A stretch of DNA of 39,980 bases from Actinomycetes bacterium. Its GTDB lineage: Bacteria > Actinomycetota > Acidimicrobiia > Acidimicrobiales > Palsa-688. Of the stretch, positions 1-28,010 are shown piece by piece. Under the pieces are notes generated by a model that worked only from the letters and a program-made list of their open reading frames with translations, made no database searches and had not been told where the DNA came from. The DNA lies in contig JAJZMF010000021.1 of assembly GCA_021850325.1 (NCBI GenBank), positions 1 through 39,980 of the forward strand, written 5' to 3'. The translations under genes and the position numbers were made by a program. Numbering within the stretch: position 1 is the stretch's first letter; each line of letters opens with the position of its first letter.

Positions 1-2
1 CG

Positions 3-1583
3 CCCACTACGACGACCGCCCTGCTCTTGGCTGCGCCGACCGCCCTCGTCGCCACACCGGGAAACTCTCTGGTGGCACTCAACTGGTCCGCCTCGCCCGG
101 TGCGACCTCCTATCAGGTGTACCAGTCCACCGGCAGCGGCTACAGCCCGGTCCCCTCCACCGACGGCGGCCGGCCCACCTCGACATCGACCGTGGTGAGC
201 GGGCTCGGAGACGGCAGTACCTACAGTTTCGAGGTGGTGGCCGAAGCCACGGGCACTACCTCCTCGGCCCCCTCGTCCTCCGTGAACGCCACCCCGTACT
301 CGATGTACTTGAGCGTGTACGCGGGCACCGGCGCACGGGGAGCACCTACCCCCGGCCCTGCCACTGGCTCGGCCCTGAGTGACCCAGCCTCCGTCGCGGT
401 CGACAGCTCCGGCAACCTCTACATCGCCGATCTCGCGAACAACGTCATCGAGAAGGTCACCCCGGCCGGCCAGCTGTCGATAGTGGCCGGCACCGGGAGC
501 GCCGGTGCTCCGACCCCGGGCCCGGCCCTGCGTTCCGATCTCTACTACCCCGACGGCATAGCGGTCGACGGCTCCGGCAACCTCTACATCGCCGATAGCC
601 GGAACAACGTCATCGAGAAGGTCACCCCGGCCGGCCAGCTGTCGATAGTGGCCGGCAGCGGCGTCCTGGGCCCCCCGACAGCCGGCCCGGCCACGGGCTC
701 CGATCTCCACGACCCCAACGGCATAGCGGTCGACAGCTCCGGCAACCTCTACATCGCCGATCGCGCGAACAACGTCATCGAGAAGGTCACCCCGGCAGGC
801 CAGCTGTCGATAGTGGCCGGCACCGGGAGCGCCGGTGCTCCGACCCCGGGCCCGGCCCTGCGCTCCGATCTCTCCTACCCCATCGGTATAGCGGTCGACA
901 GCTCCGGCAACCTCTTCATCGCCGACAGCGGGAACAACGTCATCGAGAAGGTCACCCCGGCCGGCCAGCTGTCCATAGTGGCCGGCAGCGGCGTCCTGGG
1001 CCCCCCGACAGCCGGCCCGGCCACGGGCTCCGATCTCCACGACCCCAACGGCATAGCGGTCGACATCTCCGGCAACCTCTTCATCGCCGACAGCGGCAAC
1101 GGGGACATAGAAGAGGTGACGCCAGCCGGACAGCTGTCCATAGTGGCCGGCACCGGGAGCACCGGTGGCGGTCTGCCGACCCCCGGCCCGGCCACTAGTT
1201 CCGGCCTCGGCTTGCCCCTAGGGCTTGTCGTGGACAGCTCAGGTAGCGTCTTCGTGGGCGACTACGGCGGCAACGTAGTCGAGAAGCTCGCCGCGGCCCT
1301 CCCCGTCCCAACCTCCCTGTTCGCTGCCCCGGGCAACGCAGAGGTGGTCCTCGATTGGTCCGCCTCGCCCGGTGCCACTTCATACCAGGTGTACCAGTCC
1401 ACCGGCAGCGGCTACAGCCCGGTCAGCTCCCCCGACGGTGGCCGACCCACCTCGGCGTCGACCATCGTGAGCGGGCTCACAAACGGCACCACGTACAGCT
1501 TCGAGGTGGTGGCCGAGGCCCCGAACGCCGCCCCGTCGCCACCCTCGTCCGCCGTCAACGCCACACCGGCACTCCCGGTGTGA
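3..1583 (+). CDS. NHL-repeat / fibronectin type III exported protein (5' truncated)
   Basis: The frame is open to the left edge, so the start and any signal peptide lie outside the window; an internal TTG at 27 is not a convincing start. The visible part begins with an FN3 domain (about the first 95 residues, TYSFEVVAEA near its end). Five or six NHL units of about 55 residues follow, each with a core like 'GIAVDSSGNLYIAD' and 'NNVIEKVTPAGQLSIVAG'. A second FN3 domain, closely similar to the first, forms the C-terminus. NHL units usually build a beta-propeller that binds protein or carbohydrate. The architecture suggests a secreted or surface-bound adhesion protein; this role is inferred. No sorting motif or C-terminal membrane anchor is visible. 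The gene ends before a strong inverted repeat. Confidence 0.85.
   Translation, partial: PTTTTALLLAAPTALVATPGNSLVALNWSASPGATSYQVYQSTGSGYSPVPSTDGGRPTSTSTVVSGLGDGSTYSFEVVAEATGTTSSAPSSSVNATPYSMYLSVYAGTGARGAPTPGPATGSALSDPASVAVDSSGNLYIADLANNVIEKVTPAGQLSIVAGTGSAGAPTPGPALRSDLYYPDGIAVDGSGNLYIADSRNNVIEKVTPAGQLSIVAGSGVLGPPTAGPATGSDLHDPNGIAVDSSGNLYIADRANNVIEKVTPAGQLSIVAGTGSAGAPTPGPALRSDLSYPIGIAVDSSGNLFIADSGNNVIEKVTPAGQLSIVAGSGVLGPPTAGPATGSDLHDPNGIAVDISGNLFIADSGNGDIEEVTPAGQLSIVAGTGSTGGGLPTPGPATSSGLGLPLGLVVDSSGSVFVGDYGGNVVEKLAAALPVPTSLFAAPGNAEVVLDWSASPGATSYQVYQSTGSGYSPVSSPDGGRPTSASTIVSGLTNGTTYSFEVVAEAPNAAPSPPSSAVNATPALPV
481..1140 (+). repeat. Two 330-bp higher-order direct repeats inside the NHL gene
   Basis: NHL units alternate between two types, one with 'AGTGSAGAPTPGPALRSDL' and one with 'AGSGVLGPPTAGPATGSDL'. 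The pair recurs with a 330-bp period (for example 481 with 811, and 646 with 976) at near identity. This points to recent duplication of a two-unit block rather than of single units. Confidence 0.85.
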
Positions 1584-20021: not shown

Positions 20022-20056
20022 GCCCGCCGGCAGCTGTGTTGGGCCTGCCGGCGGGC
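20022..20056 (+). promoter_or_regulatory. Perfect 12-bp stem-loop in the leader of the SipW-type exported protein gene
   Basis: GCCCGCCGGCAG (20022-20033) pairs perfectly with 20045-20056 across an 11-base loop. It ends 8 bases before the ribosome binding site GAAAGGA and 24 bases before the ATG. It may be an attenuator, an mRNA-stabilising 5' element, or a terminator of upstream readthrough. I could not match it to a known riboswitch. Confidence 0.65.
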
Positions 20057-20079
20057 GGATCCGAGAAAGGACTCGAACC

Positions 20080-20628
20080 ATGAGGATCCTACCTCGACGC
20101 CTTCTCCTGCTGGGAGGGGCGCTGATGATAGCCGGGGGCGGCTTCGCCTACATGGACAGCAACACCGTGTCCGCCAGCAACGCCGGTGAAGGTGCCGGTG
20201 TGGTGTCGGGCTACAGCGTGTACAACCTCGAGTACTCCGGGGTGTCCACGGTCGGCAACACCGGTGGGCAGACGGGCACGATGGCCTACAACCCCACCCT
20301 CGAGTCGCCCATACATGTGACGGGGAGCTCGGCCACCCTGTCGGGACAGGACACCATCGCCTACGTGTCCTTCCAGCTCAACCCGGACAACGCCCACTGG
20401 GCGGCCGTCCAGGCCTATGACAAGGGGGGCAACGTCATCAGCGGCGGCGGGGCGAGCAACTGCCAGGAGTACGCCAGCCCGGCCACTGACCCCGCGTTCA
20501 GCGCCACGGGCGGGACCACCCAGGCGATGGGTTCCTTCACCACCGGGGTCGGGATCTGGAGCTGCCGGCTCGGTACCCCGCTGCCCGCGGTCAACTTCGC
20601 CTACGTGGACGTGGAGGCCGCCCAGTAG
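20080..20628 (+). CDS. Small exported protein with SipW-dependent-type signal peptide (TasA/camelysin-like candidate)
   Basis: 182 residues from the ATG at 20080, with GAAAGGA 9 bases upstream. The N-terminus 'MRILPRRLLLLGGALMIAGG' and then 'GFAYMDSNTVSASNAGEGAG' has the form of SipW-dependent signal peptides: a short basic end, a hydrophobic core and a first strand with 'SNTV-x-ASNAG'. The mature part is small, Gly/Ser/Thr-rich and predicted beta, like camelysin or TasA-type fibre subunits, though sequence identity to TasA is not evident. Two Cys residues (NCQEY and WSCRL) could form a disulfide. The next gene encodes an S26B signal peptidase, its probable processing enzyme. A hairpin follows the stop, and another lies in the leader. 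Confidence 0.75.
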   Translation: MRILPRRLLLLGGALMIAGGGFAYMDSNTVSASNAGEGAGVVSGYSVYNLEYSGVSTVGNTGGQTGTMAYNPTLESPIHVTGSSATLSGQDTIAYVSFQLNPDNAHWAAVQAYDKGGNVISGGGASNCQEYASPATDPAFSATGGTTQAMGSFTTGVGIWSCRLGTPLPAVNFAYVDVEAAQ

Positions 20629-20650
20629 CCGGTCCGGCTCCCAGGCCGTC

Positions 20651-20680
20651 CGGGCACCGTCCGCTGTCGGGCGGTGCCCG
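20651..20680 (+). terminator. Hairpin between the exported-protein and signal-peptidase genes
   Basis: CGGGCACCGTCC (20651-20662) pairs with 20669-20680 over 12 bp with one G-T pair and a 6-base loop. It starts 22 bases after the stop at 20628 and ends 23 bases before the signal peptidase ATG. It probably limits readthrough so that the structural protein exceeds its processing enzyme. Confidence 0.6.
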
Positions 20681-20703
20681 GGCGACGGGCCCGCACTGCG
20701 ACG

Positions 20704-21258
20704 ATGACCGCACTTCGCTTTGACGCACTGCACCCGGCCGCCCGTGCCGGCCGTGGGCCGGCCGGGTACCGGTTGGGCCACCACCCCGTCGTGGTGCTCG
20801 TGACGTTGTTGGCGTTCGCCCTGGCCTGGGCCTATTGCGGGCCTGTGCAACTGGGTGGTACGACCTCCTACGCCATTGCCAACGGCGTCAGCATGCTGCC
20901 CCGGTTCCACGCCGGGGACCTCGTCGTCCTGCGCCGGGAGAGCACCTACCACGTGGGGGAAGTGGCCGCCTACCACAACGGGCAGTTGGGCATCGTGGTC
21001 ATGCACCGCATCATCGCCATCACAGATGGCCACTACGAGTTCAAAGGCGACAACAACACGTTCGCTGACTCCTTCGAGCCCACCAGGGCCCAGATCGTGG
21101 GCGCCGAGTGGATCCACCTCCCGGGGGTCGGCCGCTACGTGCTGAAGTTGCGCAACCCGGCGGCAGCCGCCCTGCTGCTGGGCCTTTTGTGGCTGGGCGC
21201 GTTCTGGCCGGCCGCGACCACCAGACGCCGGAGGAGGAGGCACCGTGATGCACACTGA
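20704..21258 (+). CDS. Signal peptidase I, S26B type (SipW/ER-archaeal-like)
   Basis: 184 residues from the ATG at 20704 (a GTG at 20674 lies within the hairpin). A membrane segment 'VVVLVTLLAFALAWAYCG' precedes the catalytic Ser S63 in 'NGVSMLPRFHAGDLVVL'. H101 in 'IVVMHRIIAI' takes the place of the general-base Lys of ordinary bacterial enzymes, as in SipW and in archaeal and ER signal peptidases. 'YEFKGDNNTF' is the conserved box E. A second membrane segment (AALLLGLLWLGAFW) and an Arg-rich tail end the protein. It would cleave the preprotein encoded just upstream and perhaps few others. The last 11 bases overlap the next gene. Confidence 0.87.
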   Translation: MTALRFDALHPAARAGRGPAGYRLGHHPVVVLVTLLAFALAWAYCGPVQLGGTTSYAIANGVSMLPRFHAGDLVVLRRESTYHVGEVAAYHNGQLGIVVMHRIIAITDGHYEFKGDNNTFADSFEPTRAQIVGAEWIHLPGVGRYVLKLRNPAAAALLLGLLWLGAFWPAATTRRRRRRHRDAH

Positions 21259-22444
21259 GGCGCGAGCCAGGCATGCCGAGGCGGCGGCCGAGAAGGCACG
21301 ACGGCGGACGCGGTCGGGGGAGGGGGCCAGCCGACGGTGGACCTGGCTCATGGGCACGTGCGCCCTGGTGGCGGTCGCTGCCGGCGCGGTGGCCATCACT
21401 GCCTGGGAGCGGCCCGTACGCGGGAGCCGGACGTTGCAGTACGTGCAGTCCGGTCGCTTCGCCTACGACGCGCGGACATCAGCGGGGTCCGTCTACGGGA
21501 GCGGGGGGTTGCGCACAGGTCAGCCTGTCTACACCGCAGAGGTGACCGCACTGCGCGTCCGCTTCTCGTACCGGTTCCGCGCCGGTGCACCCTGGAGCAT
21601 CAAGGGGCGGGGCCAATTGCTCGCCGTCATGAGCAACGGCCAGGGCATCAGCCGCCGGTTCGTGCTCCAGCCGGTGACGGCCTTTGACGGGAGCTCGTTC
21701 AGCCTGGCGGGCACCGTGCAGGTGAGCAGGCTCAACGGCATTGCCCGGGCGTTCGCTGTCGCAGCCGGCACCTCCTATGCCGGCTCGGGCTATGTCCTGA
21801 CCGTGGAGCCGGTGGTGCAGGTGCAGGGCAGGGTCGGCACCGTGGGCCTGCGGACCTCGTTCGCCCCGTCGTTCAGCTTCAGCTACACACAGGACGCCCT
21901 CCTCCCGGCCGCGAGTATGGCTGCTGCCGCCGGGGGCCCGGCAGCTACCGCGCAGGGCGGGTCGCCCTCGTTCGCTCCGACAGCCGGCGGGCAGCTCCGG
22001 GTGCCCGGCGCTCGCCCGGCCACCTACCTGGTCGCCGGCCTGACCGTGCCCGAGGCCCGTTGGGGTTCTCTCGGCACGCTGGTCCTGGCGCTGCTGGTCG
22101 GCGCCCTGGCCACCCGGGGGGCGGCGCGCCGGGCCGAGGCAGGCGTCCAGGGGGCCTGGGCCCGCGCCCGCCTGGGCCAGTCGGCCGTCGAGGTGGGCAC
22201 GCTGCCCGACTACCCCGTCGTGGCGGTGGTGGAGATGGCTGCGCTCGCCGGGCTGGTGCAGGTGGGCCGCAAGCTGGAGTGCCCGGTCCTGGTCGAAGGA
22301 GGCCCCCGGCCCACCTATGCCGTTGTCGACAGTGGGACCCTCTACCGGTACCGCCCGCCTGAGGTTGCGGTCAGTGCCAAGGGGCCGGACAGGGCCCGCA
22401 CCGCTGAGCTGCGGTTGAGCTCGGACGGCGCGTCCCGGGACTGA
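21248..22444 (+). CDS. DUF5305-like membrane protein associated with SipW-type signal peptidase
   Basis: 398 residues from the ATG at 21248 (GTG 21245 adjacent), with a GGAGGAGGAGG site just upstream inside the peptidase gene. After a basic 30-residue start comes a membrane segment (LMGTCALVAVAAGAVAITAW), a long extracytoplasmic beta-rich domain containing 'TLQYVQSGRFAYDART' and 'VYTAEVTALRVRFSYRF', a second membrane segment near 'LGTLVLALLVGALAT', and a cytoplasmic tail with 'VVAVVEMAALAGLVQVGRKLECPVLVEGGP'. This layout and the Y-x-Q-x-G-x-F-x-Y motif fit DUF5305, found beside SipW-like peptidases in archaea and actinobacteria as far as I recall. The function is unknown; it may assemble or anchor the exported protein. 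Confidence 0.65.
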   Translation: MHTEARARHAEAAAEKARRRTRSGEGASRRWTWLMGTCALVAVAAGAVAITAWERPVRGSRTLQYVQSGRFAYDARTSAGSVYGSGGLRTGQPVYTAEVTALRVRFSYRFRAGAPWSIKGRGQLLAVMSNGQGISRRFVLQPVTAFDGSSFSLAGTVQVSRLNGIARAFAVAAGTSYAGSGYVLTVEPVVQVQGRVGTVGLRTSFAPSFSFSYTQDALLPAASMAAAAGGPAATAQGGSPSFAPTAGGQLRVPGARPATYLVAGLTVPEARWGSLGTLVLALLVGALATRGAARRAEAGVQGAWARARLGQSAVEVGTLPDYPVVAVVEMAALAGLVQVGRKLECPVLVEGGPRPTYAVVDSGTLYRYRPPEVAVSAKGPDRARTAELRLSSDGASRD

Positions 22445-22527: not shown

Positions 22528-24084
22528 TCAGACGCCCCGGTGGTCCTCGTCGCGGGAGGCAGGCCACCGGGCCGGGAGGCGCACGGACGCGCTCAGCCCC
22601 CGCCGGCCCGGGGGAGCGGCCGGGTCGGTGGTGCCGAGCCCGATCGTGCCCCCCTCGGCCTCCACCAGTTGCCGGCACTGGTAGAGGCCGAGCCCGTTGC
22701 CCGGCTGGAGGTAGCTCTGACGGCCCCGCCAGTGGGCCTCGAAAGCCATGGCCTGCTCGGCCTCGGTGAGGCCGGGGCCGTGGTCTACCACCAGGACCTC
22801 GACCAGCTCGCCGGTACGCCGGGCGCTCAGCTCGACCGGTGCACCTGGCGCGTAGGCGGTCGCGTTGGCGAGCAGGTTGCCCAGCACCGAAGCGAGCCGT
22901 TCGGGATGGCCTTGGACCTGGAGGCCCTCCTGTACGTGGGCCCGGGCCCGGCCGCCGGACGCGTTCTGCAGGGCGGTGACGGTCAGGCACAGCTGAGAAA
23001 GGTCGTAAGTAGCTGGTGCTCCAGGGCCGGTGAGGATCCGGCGAAGGCTGTGGACTTCGTTGCGCACCGCAGTCGTAAGCCTGTCCACGTCTGCGCCGGA
23101 CATGGACTCCCGTTGGCCGGCCAGCACCATCAGCGTGCCGTCGATGGCGCTGAGCATGCTGTTTATGTCGTGGCGTTGGGCCTGGTAGGACCGTCGCACC
23201 CGGGCCAGCTCCCGCTCCGCCATCTCCCAGCGGCGCCGGCCGCGCACGTCCTGACGGACCACCCGCTTCAAGACCGTGCTCAGCTCGGGCCCTGTCAGTA
23301 CGAGAGCCATGGTCGCACCGGCGGCAAGGAACATCGAAGGCATGCTCGCCCAGCCCCCCTTGCCGCCCGAGGGGTACCAGGCGAGCACGGCCCATGCCCC
23401 GGCCAGGGCGAGGTCCGTCCCCCCGGCGCCCGCCAGCACGTGCCTGCCGTTACGGGCTGCCCGCGCCAGCAACAGGCCGCCCACCCCCAGGGCGGCGAGC
23501 GAGGCGGCGAGGTCGGTGACAAGGGCACCGGCCAAGCGGTAGCCCAAAAGCGCCCGGGCCGGCACGAGGCAGAGGGCCCCGGCGCCCACGGGCACGAGCA
23601 CCAGCACACTGACCATGAAGGGTGCCGGCCGAAGGCGCGCCTTCACCTCCGGCAGGGCGCTCGAGTAGATGCCCAGGACGAGGACCGCGACCGTGGCGAC
23701 CAGGCGCAGGGCGGCGGGGTACCCCGTACCGGGCCAGGGAAGGCGGGCCGATGTGGGCAGGAAGTACAGACCAGTCGCTGCGGCCCCCGTGGCCGCCGGC
23801 ACGGCAGCGGCCTCCCCGGCCAGGCGCCAGTGCAGGACGAGCACGGCCGCCCCGGCCAGGAGCTCCACGAAGGCCACGTCGCTCACGCCGGCGGTCCACG
23901 CCGGCACGGTGAGGAAGGGGAGCGAGGTCACCAAAGCTGCCGCAACGAAGGGGAAGGCCAGGGCCCAGAGCACGGCACCTGCTACGAGCGAGGGTCGGCT
24001 CGGGTGGGCGACGCCCAGTACCCCGCGCCGGTCGGGGCCGGCGTAGCCGTCTCCTCGTCGCTCACGAGCCAGGACCGTGCCCAT
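22528..24084 (-). CDS. Membrane sensor histidine kinase
   Basis: 518 residues. The first 270 hold about eight hydrophobic segments with no recognised periplasmic sensor domain. A dimerisation helix follows with the phospho-acceptor H305 in 'RRSYQAQRHDINSMLSAI', then the ATPase domain: N-box 'LGNLLANATAYA' (401-412), D-box 'VVDHGPGL' (432-439) and G-box 'GNGLGLYQCRQL' (462-473). The H-box is not of the HPK7 type often paired with NarL-type regulators. The gene starts 9 bases after the stop of the response regulator gene, so the two form one operon. The signal is unknown; a membrane-embedded sensor is suggested. Confidence 0.88.
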   Translation of the reverse strand: MGTVLARERRGDGYAGPDRRGVLGVAHPSRPSLVAGAVLWALAFPFVAAALVTSLPFLTVPAWTAGVSDVAFVELLAGAAVLVLHWRLAGEAAAVPAATGAAATGLYFLPTSARLPWPGTGYPAALRLVATVAVLVLGIYSSALPEVKARLRPAPFMVSVLVLVPVGAGALCLVPARALLGYRLAGALVTDLAASLAALGVGGLLLARAARNGRHVLAGAGGTDLALAGAWAVLAWYPSGGKGGWASMPSMFLAAGATMALVLTGPELSTVLKRVVRQDVRGRRRWEMAERELARVRRSYQAQRHDINSMLSAIDGTLMVLAGQRESMSGADVDRLTTAVRNEVHSLRRILTGPGAPATYDLSQLCLTVTALQNASGGRARAHVQEGLQVQGHPERLASVLGNLLANATAYAPGAPVELSARRTGELVEVLVVDHGPGLTEAEQAMAFEAHWRGRQSYLQPGNGLGLYQCRQLVEAEGGTIGLGTTDPAAPPGRRGLSASVRLPARWPASRDEDHRGV

Positions 24085-24093
24085 CGCCGGCGA

Positions 24094-24849
24094 TCAGGGA
24101 GCTGTGCGCCCTGCGGCGTGCACCAGGTGGCCGGGGGACGGCCCGGGCGGGCAGGCCTCCGTTGTCGAGCAATGCCCACCCGGCTTGGCCGTTGTGCGCA
24201 GTAACGCAACGGCGGCCAGCTGGCTCGAGACGCCGAGCTTGGTGAGGACGGCGTGGATGTGGCTGCGCACCGTGCCCACCGAGATGTAGAGGTCCCCTGC
24301 GATCTCGTTGGCCGTCCTGCCTTCGGAGAGGGCGAGCAGCACCTCGTGCTCGCGGCCCGTGAGCTCGGACAGGCGCCGGCAGAGGTCGCGTTGCTCGGCC
24401 AGACGGTCCCGGCCGATGTCCCGCAGGTGCCCGAGGTCGCCGGAAGGGAACTGGCGCCGGCCGCTCATCGCCACCTCGGCGGCGTCCAACAGGCGCTCGA
24501 AGGGCTCGGTCTTGCTCACCCAGCCGGTGACACCCAGGGCGACCGCCTCGGCCAGGCGGGCCTCGTCGGTGTAACCGGTGACGACGAGCACCCGGGCGCC
24601 GGTGGCGCCCAGCCCGGGGACGAGGTCGAGGCCGTCGGTGCCGCCCAGGTCCAGGTCCAGGAGCACCAGCCCGGGGCGCTGGCGCGCCGCCTGGGCCAGG
24701 ATGCCCTCCCGACCGGCCACTTCTGCCACCCGGCAGTCAAAACCTCGGGCTCCCAGGCTGAGGGCAAGGGCCTCCGCCAGCATCTGGTGGTCCTCGACGA
24801 TCAGCACTCGCCTCGACTTGCCGGGCTCGCCGCAAGCCTGCTCTGGCAT
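24094..24849 (-). CDS. NarL/FixJ-family response regulator
   Basis: 251 residues from the ATG at 24849, chosen for GGAGG 5 bases upstream; the longer frame to 25068 has no such site. Receiver domain: acidic pair E19-D20 in 'LIVEDH', phospho-acceptor D65 in 'LVLLDLDLGG', T91 in 'VVTGYTD', K113 in 'VSKTEP'. A LuxR-type helix-turn-helix follows at about 168-225 ('LTGREHEVLLALSEGRTANEIAGDLYISVGTVRSHIHAVLTKLGVSS'). About 25 C-terminal residues after it are Pro/Gly-rich. It is cotranscribed with the histidine kinase. Target genes are unknown; the convergent SipW-like module is one candidate by closeness only. Confidence 0.9.
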   Translation of the reverse strand: MPEQACGEPGKSRRVLIVEDHQMLAEALALSLGARGFDCRVAEVAGREGILAQAARQRPGLVLLDLDLGGTDGLDLVPGLGATGARVLVVTGYTDEARLAEAVALGVTGWVSKTEPFERLLDAAEVAMSGRRQFPSGDLGHLRDIGRDRLAEQRDLCRRLSELTGREHEVLLALSEGRTANEIAGDLYISVGTVRSHIHAVLTKLGVSSQLAAVALLRTTAKPGGHCSTTEACPPGPSPGHLVHAAGRTAP

Positions 24850-25157
24850 TCGTCCTCCAACCCGAGTCAAAGCGTACTGGCGACGGCCCGGCTGCGCGCA
24901 AGCGTTGTGCGGGCGGTGGCGGCGAAGAGGGCGAAAGCGCCCGGGACAGAAGGGTGTACGGGTACGCGCCGTGTTGGCCGGGCCGCCCAATGCGGCGGGA
25001 GGCAAATAGGGGCAAGGCCGGTTGCAAGCCCCGTAGCAGGTGGGGAAGGCCCGCCAAAGTGCTGGCAAAAGGGGGGACTTACGGGAGAGGGCCCGGGGGG
25101 CGCGAGGAGCACTGTGGGCCGGTGGGCACGTTGCCCCGGACGGCGGGCCGGCCGGGC
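24850..25157. other. Gene-free region upstream of the response regulator
   Basis: 308 bases between the response regulator start and the stop of the LuxR-type ATPase gene. It should hold the two-component promoter and the 3' end of the ATPase message. Apart from the GGAGG just before 24849 I see no clear promoter pair or strong hairpin. Frames crossing it lack ribosome binding sites. Confidence 0.4.
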
Positions 25158-27935
25158 TCAGTCAGCTTGTTGGTGCCGGGCACCGAGCGCCTCGGCCAGC
25201 TGCCGGCGCGACGAGACACCCAGACGCGCGTAGACCCGGGTGAGGTGGTGCTCGACGGTACGCGACGAGATCATCAAAAGCCTTCCGATCTCGGCGTTTG
25301 TCTTGCCCGAGGCGGCCAGCTCGGCGGCACGGCGTTCCATGGGCGTGAGAGGCCCCGCCTGTGCGGCTCCTGTGCGGCGACGGCCTCCGGCAGCATGCAG
25401 TGCCCCGGTGGCGAGGGCCTCCAGCCGGCGGGCACCGCATGCCTGGGCCAGCTGCAGGGCGCGGCTGAGCACGGGACGGGCCTCGGCGGGTGAACGGTGG
25501 CGACGCAGGAACTCCCCGTAGGCGACCAGTGTCTCGACCTCTTCCAGGGGCATGGACAGGCCCTCGTGCCACCCAAGTGCCAGGCAGAACTGGGACCGGG
25601 CACCTTCGATGTCACGGCCCTGCTCGGCGAGCAGGGCCCTGCCCCGGCAGGCGACGGCCCGGGGGTACCGGGTACCGAGGGCCTCGCCTGTGGCCTCGAG
25701 GGCCTCGACGACCCGACGGGCGTCGTCGTAGCGGCCGGCGGCCACGTAGGCCCTCACTGCCACCGGGTGCCAGACGGCTGAGGCGGGCTCCAGGGCCCCG
25801 ACCAGGCCGGCCAGAGCCTCGGCCTGCGCCATGAGCCGGCAGGCGCTGCCCACGTCGCCCGCGTCCAGGGCGAGCAGGGCCCGGACGCGCCACAGCCAGA
25901 ACCGGAGGAGGGGCAGCGACGTACCGTCGGTGCCCACCACGTCCTCGATCGCCCGGCAGTACCCGGCAGCCTGGTCGGGCATCGCCAGTTCCAGGTGCAC
26001 GTGAGCCAGCCCGACCAGTGTCCACGCACCGGCCGAGGGTGCAAAAGGCAGGACCTCCAGGGACCGGAGCAGGGTCTCCCTGCTGTCCAGGAGCCGGCCC
26101 GTGCGGGCCAGGGTGTCGGCGTGGGTCACCCAGTAGACGGCCCGGGCCATCGGGGTGGCCGAGGGGCCGGCCTCGGCCATGGCGAGGCGGTAGTCCTCCT
26201 CGGCCTCGTCGAAGAGCTCCAGGAACTTGTGGGCCTGCATCTGCTGGAGCCGTGGCCCCCACTCGGGGGCGCCCTGCAGCCCGCGCAGGCCCTGGCCGTG
26301 AGGGAGCCGGGACAGCGCGTCGGCGATCTCGGTCGCCCCCTGGGGGCACGCCTGGGCCAGGCTTGCCATACCCCTGGCCGTGTGCGCCCAGATGGCCAGT
26401 TCCGGGCGGGCGCCGGCCGGCAGCGCGCTCAGCGCCTGGTCGGCAAAGTGCAAAGAGCGCTTCGGGCCTGAGGTGTACAGGGCCACCTGTGAGGCTTCGA
26501 GCAGTACCTCGGACGCCAATGAACGGTGCCCCGGACGGGCCGCAGCCGCCGCTCGTTCGAAGGCCGTCTCGGCCTCGGCGGAGCTGCCCGTCCTGACCAG
26601 CGCCCGGGCCAGCGCCCGGTAGGCCCCGGCGGTGACGACAGGGCCCCTGGGTGTGGCGAGGAGGCGACGGCAGACCTCGGCCGCCTCGGCTGCCTCGCCC
26701 GCTGCCAGCAGGCAATCGGCAAGCCTCACGACCAGCTCGGCCGCCGGCCGGGCACCGGCCAGGTGCAGGGCCCCGCGCAGCCAGCGTGCCGCCAGGGCCG
26801 TGGCGCCGTGGTCGAGCGCTTCCAGGCCGGCCGCCTCCAGGACATGAACGGCTTCGGCGCTACCTGTCAGATCCGCGGCCAGAGCGTGGCTCGCCGCCTC
26901 CGATGCCGGGAGCCCTGCTTGCCAGACCAGACGGAACGCGGCAGCGTGGAGCTGGGCCCGCAGCGGTGGCGGCATGTCGTCGTAGAGCGCCTGGCGCAGC
27001 AGGGCGTGCGCGAAGCGTACCGAGCCTTCCGAGGCGCTCAGGACGAGCGCGCCTCCGCACAGGGCAGCGAGGGCGGCCCGGGACGCGCTCTCGTCCAGCC
27101 CCGCCAGTGCCCCGGTCAGGGCAGGACGGAACTCCACCCCGAAGATGGAGGCTGCCCGGGCGTAGTCCAGGCTGATGGCGTCCAGGCCGGTGAACCGGCT
27201 GAGCAGTAGCCGGGCGGGGGCGTTCGTGGAGCCGGGGACCGGAAGGTCCGGCCCGGCGGAGCCGGCGGCCAGCTGTTGCAGCAGGGCAGGGTTGCCGGCG
27301 CACAGGTCCTCCAGCCGCCCGGCCAGCTCGGGAGACGGGGCGTGCCCGGCCACCCTGGTGAAGAGGGCGACCGATGCGGGGTCGCTCAGCCGGGCCAGCC
27401 GCACGGCCCGGGCTGTCCCGGCCGACACGAGCGCCTCGACCGTCCTCATCGGCCCCGGTGGCCAGGGCCGCAGGCCGGCAATCACGGCGACAGGCGTACC
27501 CGTTGGACGGAGGGCCAGGAGCTCCAGCAGGCGCAGGCTGTCGGGGTCGGCAAAGTGCAGGTCGTCGAGGCACAACAGCACCGGCCGCCGCCTCGAGGCC
27601 AGCCAGTCGCGGGCGCGGTACCAGGTCGCCGCCGCCCGCTCGGCCACCGGCAGCTCGGGTGCCGCTCGTGCGAGGTCCGTTGCCCCCGCCCGGGAGAGGG
27701 CCCTGCCGATCACCCCGAAGGGGAGCAGTGTCTCCGAGGCCTCTCCACTGGCCCCGCCCACCTTGAAGCCGGCCGCGGTCCCCACCGCGTGCTGGAGCAG
27801 AGCGGACTTCCCCAGCCCGGGTTCACCCAGCACGAACAAGAGCGACATGCGGCCATGGCGGGCGGTGGCGAGAGAGGTTGCAATGGCCTCGACCGCCTCT
27901 CGACGCTCCAGCAGGCCCAGCTCCTCCGTCGGCAC
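25158..27935 (-). CDS. Large ATP-binding LuxR-family transcriptional regulator (LAL)
   Basis: 925 residues from the GTG at 27935 (TTG at 27938 also possible), preceded by GAGGAGGG 8 bases upstream. The N-terminus starts 'LLERREAVEAI' and has the Walker A motif 'GEPGLGKSALL' near residue 38 and a Walker B 'VLLCLDDLHFADP' near 120, an AAA/STAND ATPase. The centre is about 500 residues of Ala/Leu-rich helical repeats, probably TPR-like. The C-terminal LuxR helix-turn-helix reads 'LTPMERRAAELAASGKTNAEIGRLLMISSRTVEHHLTRVYARLGVSSRRQL'. LAL regulators are usually activators of secondary metabolism or sugar genes that respond to a small molecule. A TATAAT on this strand at 28032-28037 may be part of its promoter. 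The regulon is unknown. Confidence 0.9.
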   Translation of the reverse strand: MPTEELGLLERREAVEAIATSLATARHGRMSLLFVLGEPGLGKSALLQHAVGTAAGFKVGGASGEASETLLPFGVIGRALSRAGATDLARAAPELPVAERAAATWYRARDWLASRRRPVLLCLDDLHFADPDSLRLLELLALRPTGTPVAVIAGLRPWPPGPMRTVEALVSAGTARAVRLARLSDPASVALFTRVAGHAPSPELAGRLEDLCAGNPALLQQLAAGSAGPDLPVPGSTNAPARLLLSRFTGLDAISLDYARAASIFGVEFRPALTGALAGLDESASRAALAALCGGALVLSASEGSVRFAHALLRQALYDDMPPPLRAQLHAAAFRLVWQAGLPASEAASHALAADLTGSAEAVHVLEAAGLEALDHGATALAARWLRGALHLAGARPAAELVVRLADCLLAAGEAAEAAEVCRRLLATPRGPVVTAGAYRALARALVRTGSSAEAETAFERAAAAARPGHRSLASEVLLEASQVALYTSGPKRSLHFADQALSALPAGARPELAIWAHTARGMASLAQACPQGATEIADALSRLPHGQGLRGLQGAPEWGPRLQQMQAHKFLELFDEAEEDYRLAMAEAGPSATPMARAVYWVTHADTLARTGRLLDSRETLLRSLEVLPFAPSAGAWTLVGLAHVHLELAMPDQAAGYCRAIEDVVGTDGTSLPLLRFWLWRVRALLALDAGDVGSACRLMAQAEALAGLVGALEPASAVWHPVAVRAYVAAGRYDDARRVVEALEATGEALGTRYPRAVACRGRALLAEQGRDIEGARSQFCLALGWHEGLSMPLEEVETLVAYGEFLRRHRSPAEARPVLSRALQLAQACGARRLEALATGALHAAGGRRRTGAAQAGPLTPMERRAAELAASGKTNAEIGRLLMISSRTVEHHLTRVYARLGVSSRRQLAEALGARHQQAD

Positions 27936-28010
27936 CAACCGGCCCTCCTCAACTGATCTCGGTTGCCGGAGCTGAAAGTCACACGCTATGTACGGGGGGT
28001 GCCCCCGATG

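Follow-up and report, generated by a model that had tools for sequence, protein, structure and literature searches.

The locus described here raises the question of what three adjacent actinobacterial genes, for a small exported protein (P1), a signal peptidase (P2) and a membrane protein (P3), do together, and whether they form a fibre-producing system of the kind known from Bacillus, as an earlier note on this DNA had suggested. The genes lie in a stretch of 39,980 nucleotides from an uncultured actinobacterium, the whole of which is referred to here as the window, and by open reading frame analysis all three are on the plus strand between 20080 and 22444 (Table 1). The original start for P1, at 20022, is too far upstream by about 58 bases: its relatives share the ATG at 20080, which is preceded by a good Shine-Dalgarno sequence (GAAAGGA). 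The ATG of P3 lies inside P2, and the identical 11-nt overlap recurs in five close homologues with split genes (L016, L017, L019, L020 and L005), the overlapping start codon being GTG or TTG in L019 and L005.

Table 1. Features of the window, with positions counted from its first nucleotide
Feature	Position	Strand	Length	Assignment and basis
Leader hairpin	20022-20057			Near-perfect and GC-rich (GCCCGCCGGCAG...CTGCCGGCGGGC)
P1	20080-20628	+	182 aa	Small exported protein, putative substrate; ORF; N-terminus and motif kept in 30+ relatives
P2	20704-21258	+	184 aa	S26B (ER/SipW-type) Ser/His signal peptidase; TIGR02228, invariant residues, SEC11 alignment
P2 stop/P3 start overlap	21248-21258	+	11 nt	
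P3	21248-22444	+	398 aa	Divergent DUF5305 membrane protein; relatives above PF17231 cut-off, structure model, fusions
Membrane histidine kinase	22528-24084	-		HATPase_c (Pfam); QRHDIN H-box; convergent with P3
NarL/LuxR-type response regulator	24094-25068	-		Pfam; likely start 24849
AAA/TPR/LuxR (LAL-type) regulator	25158-27938			Large; adjoins the response regulator
Two FN3/Big_3_5 proteins	34524-39983			Large, secreted, in tandem
FN3/Big giant protein	1-1583			

The leader hairpin, just 5' of the P1 ribosome-binding site, has a computed RNA folding energy of -36.1 kcal/mol (z -4.0) and is not followed by a T run; it may serve as a regulatory element of the leader or as a block resembling a terminator. 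The LAL-type regulator was not seen in the module elsewhere. The FN3/Big giant proteins, once proposed as matrix partners, were set aside: over 12 kb separates them from P3, nothing was found that links them to the module, and among its neighbours at other loci, which were judged by reading and not by Pfam, no FN3/Big gene was noticed.

Conservation of the trio and the peptidase-DUF5305 pair

Searches with each of P1, P2 and P3 recovered the trio in relatives, and the gene set is found in dozens of related genomes. At all 33 loci with enough flanking sequence, P2 and P3 were adjacent, overlapping or fused; they abut or overlap in 15, and form a single open reading frame in 18 (L034-L038, L042, L115, L118-L121, L123, L125, L126, L128-L130 and L132, where the peptidase part of L130 is a fragment match only). 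P1 was directly upstream of the pair at 28 of the 32 loci where this position was visible, and three distant fusions had no recognisable P1. Close split forms of P2-P3 make up one clade (support 0.95), and L042, a fused locus, comes from the window's own genus, so that both forms occur even among close relatives.

This arrangement is far above chance. The earlier note had treated the three genes as one unit and named a linkage survey as one of the tests that might overturn that view; the survey came out for linkage. That the genes are chance neighbours with unrelated functions, a reading for which their patchy occurrence speaks (24 of 397 genomes of the order carry P3 by profile), is exceedingly improbable and was refuted by the survey, since gene order, the 11-nt overlap and fusion are kept across many families. 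In the phylum, the P3 profile found 6 of 396 genomes and the P1 profile 5, all of them among the six with P3. The P1 profile was built partly from loci beside P2-P3, and this overlap is therefore partly by construction; the same does not apply to the absence of P1 from the remaining 390. One locus, L016, is labelled Dormiibacterota, but lies on a 6-kb contig, and the label may be a binning error.

The assignment of P2 as a Ser/His signal peptidase of family S26B was borne out. It passes the cut-off of TIGR02228 (56.9 bits against 51.85) as well as that of Peptidase_S24, is hydrophobic at both ends, and has Ser63, His101 and Asp122 invariant across eight homologues, with Asp116 nearby. The GxSMxP serine motif was found at every locus of the wider set except L130, the fragment match, and the H-[RQ]-[IV] motif at all except L130 and L112. 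A P2 profile matched human SEC11A/SEC11C (E 1.8e-11), with the stretches containing Ser, His and the GDNN Asp in alignment. At 27.3 bits, P2 is well below the cut-off of 190 for the equivalog of SipW proper (NF046067), and judging by its sequence it is SipW-like, not the Bacillus SipW. Other S26B peptidases of the phylum that have no DUF5305 have different neighbours.

For P3, the description as DUF5305-like holds through its relatives, while the protein of the window is itself below detection, with no match to PF17231 at E<=5 or to any other Pfam family. Its homologues in L016 (31.2 bits) and L017 (29.3 bits), which are 41-43% identical to it, reach the PF17231 cut-off of 29 bits, and five P2-P3 fusion proteins score 33.7-58.5. 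An AlphaFold model predicts a membrane helix (25-54), an extracytoplasmic beta-sandwich (about 58-257; pLDDT about 85-93 over most of its length), a second helix (267-308) and a low-confidence cytoplasmic tail, in which a motif is conserved (LECPVL...YAVVDSGTLYRY, also given as LECPVL...YAVVD..TLYRY). Fold searches gave middling matches, including RbmA (Z 8.1; 103 aligned residues, 2.8 A), with many unrelated entries scoring near, and for this reason no fold family is claimed. The sequence of P3 had no significant match among solved chains. A likeness to SPCS3 was also considered and set aside, there being no sequence match; SPCS3 did not appear among the fold matches listed, an absence that is not evidential.

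A further secreted protein with a C-terminal membrane tail (P4) follows P3 at two loci (L016, 5334-6053; L019, 7630-8418), and none was noticed adjoining P3 in the window.

Since P2 and P3 are one protein at 18 loci, the peptidase and DUF5305 very likely act together, and a complex shared by the two is the strongest inference to be drawn from the locus. An alternative is that DUF5305 is not an assembly partner but an export sensor, the outer domain detecting uncleaved P1 and the conserved tail relaying this state inward. It would suit the conserved cytoplasmic motif, the two modelled membrane helices with an outside domain and the linkage to a kinase, but fusion to the peptidase at 18 loci, at some of which no regulator was seen, argues for a role in the enzyme complex, and we regard a sensor as unlikely. 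The function of PF17231 (DUF5305) is undescribed in the literature found; our search, which took in a minority of the subscription journals, returned no publication on the family and no description of a module of this kind.

P1 and the TasA question

The signal of P1 (residues 1-23) was originally described as of SipW type. Its shape, its conserved N-terminus and its motif resemble such signals, but neither PF12389 nor the model of the SipW-dependent signal, TIGR04088, was matched, the latter at E<=1 by P1 or by any of the relatives scanned. The first 45 residues are the most conserved part of the protein, with a mean pairwise identity of 40% versus 22% elsewhere, and are the more similar part in 77 of 78 pairs. 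In nearly all relatives the hydrophobic stretch ends in A-[FY]-[TLM]-[AN], usually followed by N, which makes a motif like A-[FY]-[TLM]-A-x-N, and the likely cut in P1, predicted by eye, is GGGFA|YMDSN (A23|Y24). The aromatic residue at this junction recalls TasA, where residues around the cut, one aromatic among them, block the Ser/Lys enzyme of E. coli (PMC10269814).

The mature domain of P1 contains two cysteines (SNC and WSC), and at least two are present in the mature part of 23 of 24 automatically split relatives, the last usually within [WYF]xC. Neither a sortase motif nor a C-terminal anchor or tail helix was found in P1, which is the sole copy of its family in its own genome. No match was obtained among Pfam, NCBIfam or PDB profiles; the structure model was poor (pLDDT 51.5), and the fold search gave nothing significant. 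On these sequence comparisons, P1 appears to represent a new family, marked by two conserved cysteines and lying outside TasA and camelysin.

The comparison of P1 with TasA and camelysin, made in the earlier note, found no support. Their family models (PF12389 and NF046066) were unmatched, and hhalign against four TasA-type proteins gave a probability of 8%. A separate TasA-type protein is encoded in the same genome (PF12389, 38.4 bits; cut-off 22.5), followed by another S26B peptidase (L045, 7187-8807, corresponding to about 237.2-238.8 kb of contig C17 in genome G000; also L001), which makes the module of the window a second, distinct SipW-like unit. In another genome, G018, a similar pair and the module are about 3-4 kb apart (L039, 14509-15910). 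With a Ser/Lys signal peptidase also encoded in the genome of the window (contig C31), the role of P2 is distinct from both. A plain fibre system of the Bacillus type, to which the SipW-like peptidase and the shape of the signal would point, is then quite improbable: P1 lacks a TasA or camelysin match, it is the other SipW pair of the genome that matches PF12389, and the published Bacillus loci found have no DUF5305.

In one locus (L086, 4444-6474; G278:C128) a P1-type signal and domain head a protein of 677 aa, away from the peptidase, and the repeats of this protein resemble a parallel beta-helix of surface type. Tandem P1 genes also occur, with three clear copies and a partial fourth in L125 and three in L038.

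The two-component regulator and a proposed working

A histidine kinase and a NarL-type response regulator, absent from the earlier note, adjoin P3 in the window. In L016, L019 and L020 both genes have orthologues directly upstream of P1. The kinases of L016 and L019 share 40% identity with that of the window along their entire length, the L020 kinase 47% in its C-terminal half, and the response regulators of the three loci 53-58%. At L112-L114, L116, L117 and L127, P3 and a regulator are placed tail-to-tail, and in genome G029 a diverged, convergent pair is downstream of the module. Among 18 genomes tested, each with 4-14 such regulators, the best match to the module regulator adjoins the module in 11 (G000, G747, G713, G729, G512, G029, G574, G698, G023, G014 and G686), or in 9 of 16 when the genomes used for building the profile (G000 and G747) are left out. 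If a genome of 3 Mb holds about six candidates, one of them would by our own estimate fall within 5 kb of the module by chance in about 2% of genomes. The module is present without the pair in G018, and in G015 the pair is away from any module, on an 8-kb contig.

We consider it fairly likely that the module is an export unit, regulated and dedicated to P1, whose membrane complex of the S26B peptidase and DUF5305 cleaves that protein. P1 would enter via Sec and remain tethered by its signal, the conserved A-[FY] junction probably being a poor substrate for the general Ser/Lys signal peptidase. The signal would then be removed by P2, which P3 would keep in one membrane complex, and the beta-sandwich of P3, outside and near the cleavage site, would probably receive, chaperone or assemble the freed P1. 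The adjacent kinase and response regulator would turn the operon on. P1 would then do its work on the cell surface, where the most likely role for it is that of a small, disulfide-bonded building block of a filament or coat. P1 is probably a surface protein exported by its own signal peptidase with an often-fused membrane partner and, usually, a two-component switch. Of this picture, the gene identities, the catalytic residues, the conserved linkage, the joining of P2 and P3 and the link to the regulator are computed results; cleavage of P1 by P2, the complex and regulation are inferred.

Polymerisation of P1 is speculative, a guess made by analogy, and is helped by the tandem P1 copies and by the P1 domain at the head of the 677-aa repeat protein; a filament as the product of the module is possible, although not what we would expect, and P1 matches no known fibre subunit family among those searched. 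The nearest working model would be the sipW-bsaA system of C. perfringens, in which the BsaRS two-component system is needed for sipW expression, SipW is needed for secretion, and BsaA forms filaments (PMC7395162). The sipW-bsaABCRSD locus and the module each unite a two-component system with a SipW-type peptidase and its small exported substrate, putative in the case of P1, but DUF5305 is not described from the clostridial locus. Fibre formation by P1 is plausible on this analogy; BsaA filaments have been demonstrated, and P1 is likened to BsaA by the content of the locus, not by comparison of their sequences.

Alternatively, P1 may not polymerise at all but be released as a protein signal or sensor ligand, the peptidase freeing it and the kinase sensing either P1 or the state of the envelope. 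A signalling circuit of this kind would account for the regulator pair beside the module at many loci, and for a P1 that is small, anchorless and variable in its mature part. Structural subunits are the better fit to loci where P1-like genes stand three or four in a row and to the large repeat protein headed by a P1 domain, and sipW-type loci elsewhere yield matrix proteins (PMC7395162), so that we judge the circuit improbable, and the dedicated export unit is preferred.

Like the tapA-sipW-tasA operon of B. subtilis and the sipW-tasA/calY genes of B. cereus, that unit has a dedicated Ser/His peptidase and a substrate whose cut site lies close to an aromatic residue (PMC10269814, PMC13082335). 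It differs in that P1 shows no detectable homology to TasA or CalY, and the Bacillus accounts found describe nothing equivalent to the P3-type partner, which is often one protein with the peptidase. The SEC11 match of the P2 profile also recalls the eukaryotic signal peptidase complex, where the catalytic subunit is joined by membrane accessory subunits, the SPCS proteins (PMC13385932); the parallel is one of layout only, P3 being without significant sequence match to solved chains.

A broader proposal is that bacterial ER-type signal peptidases have in DUF5305 the assembly partner they were missing: the S26B-DUF5305 complex, often a single polypeptide, would couple signal removal to assembly of a so far unnamed family of disulfide-bonded surface filament subunits under its own two-component control. 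We hold this to be doubtful. The analysis gives DUF5305 a role that can be put to the test, that of partner to an ER-type signal peptidase. It also defines a new substrate family outside TasA and camelysin, and shows that SipW-like loci equipped with a two-component switch of their own occur beyond the Firmicutes. Should P1 form fibres, these would represent actinobacterial surface filaments of a new class.

Actinobacterial S26B peptidases of a similar kind were seen at four other loci (L069, 7498-8463; L070, 7530-7940; L071, 7197-8148; L072, 4895-5338), adjoining another unnamed family of small secreted proteins (AASLGVTTETLGAGGTSVASCD...GYKVxxITVTGIADTC). P4 weakly matches this family (20.5 and 15.6 bits), and in L071 a response regulator is directly upstream of the peptidase.
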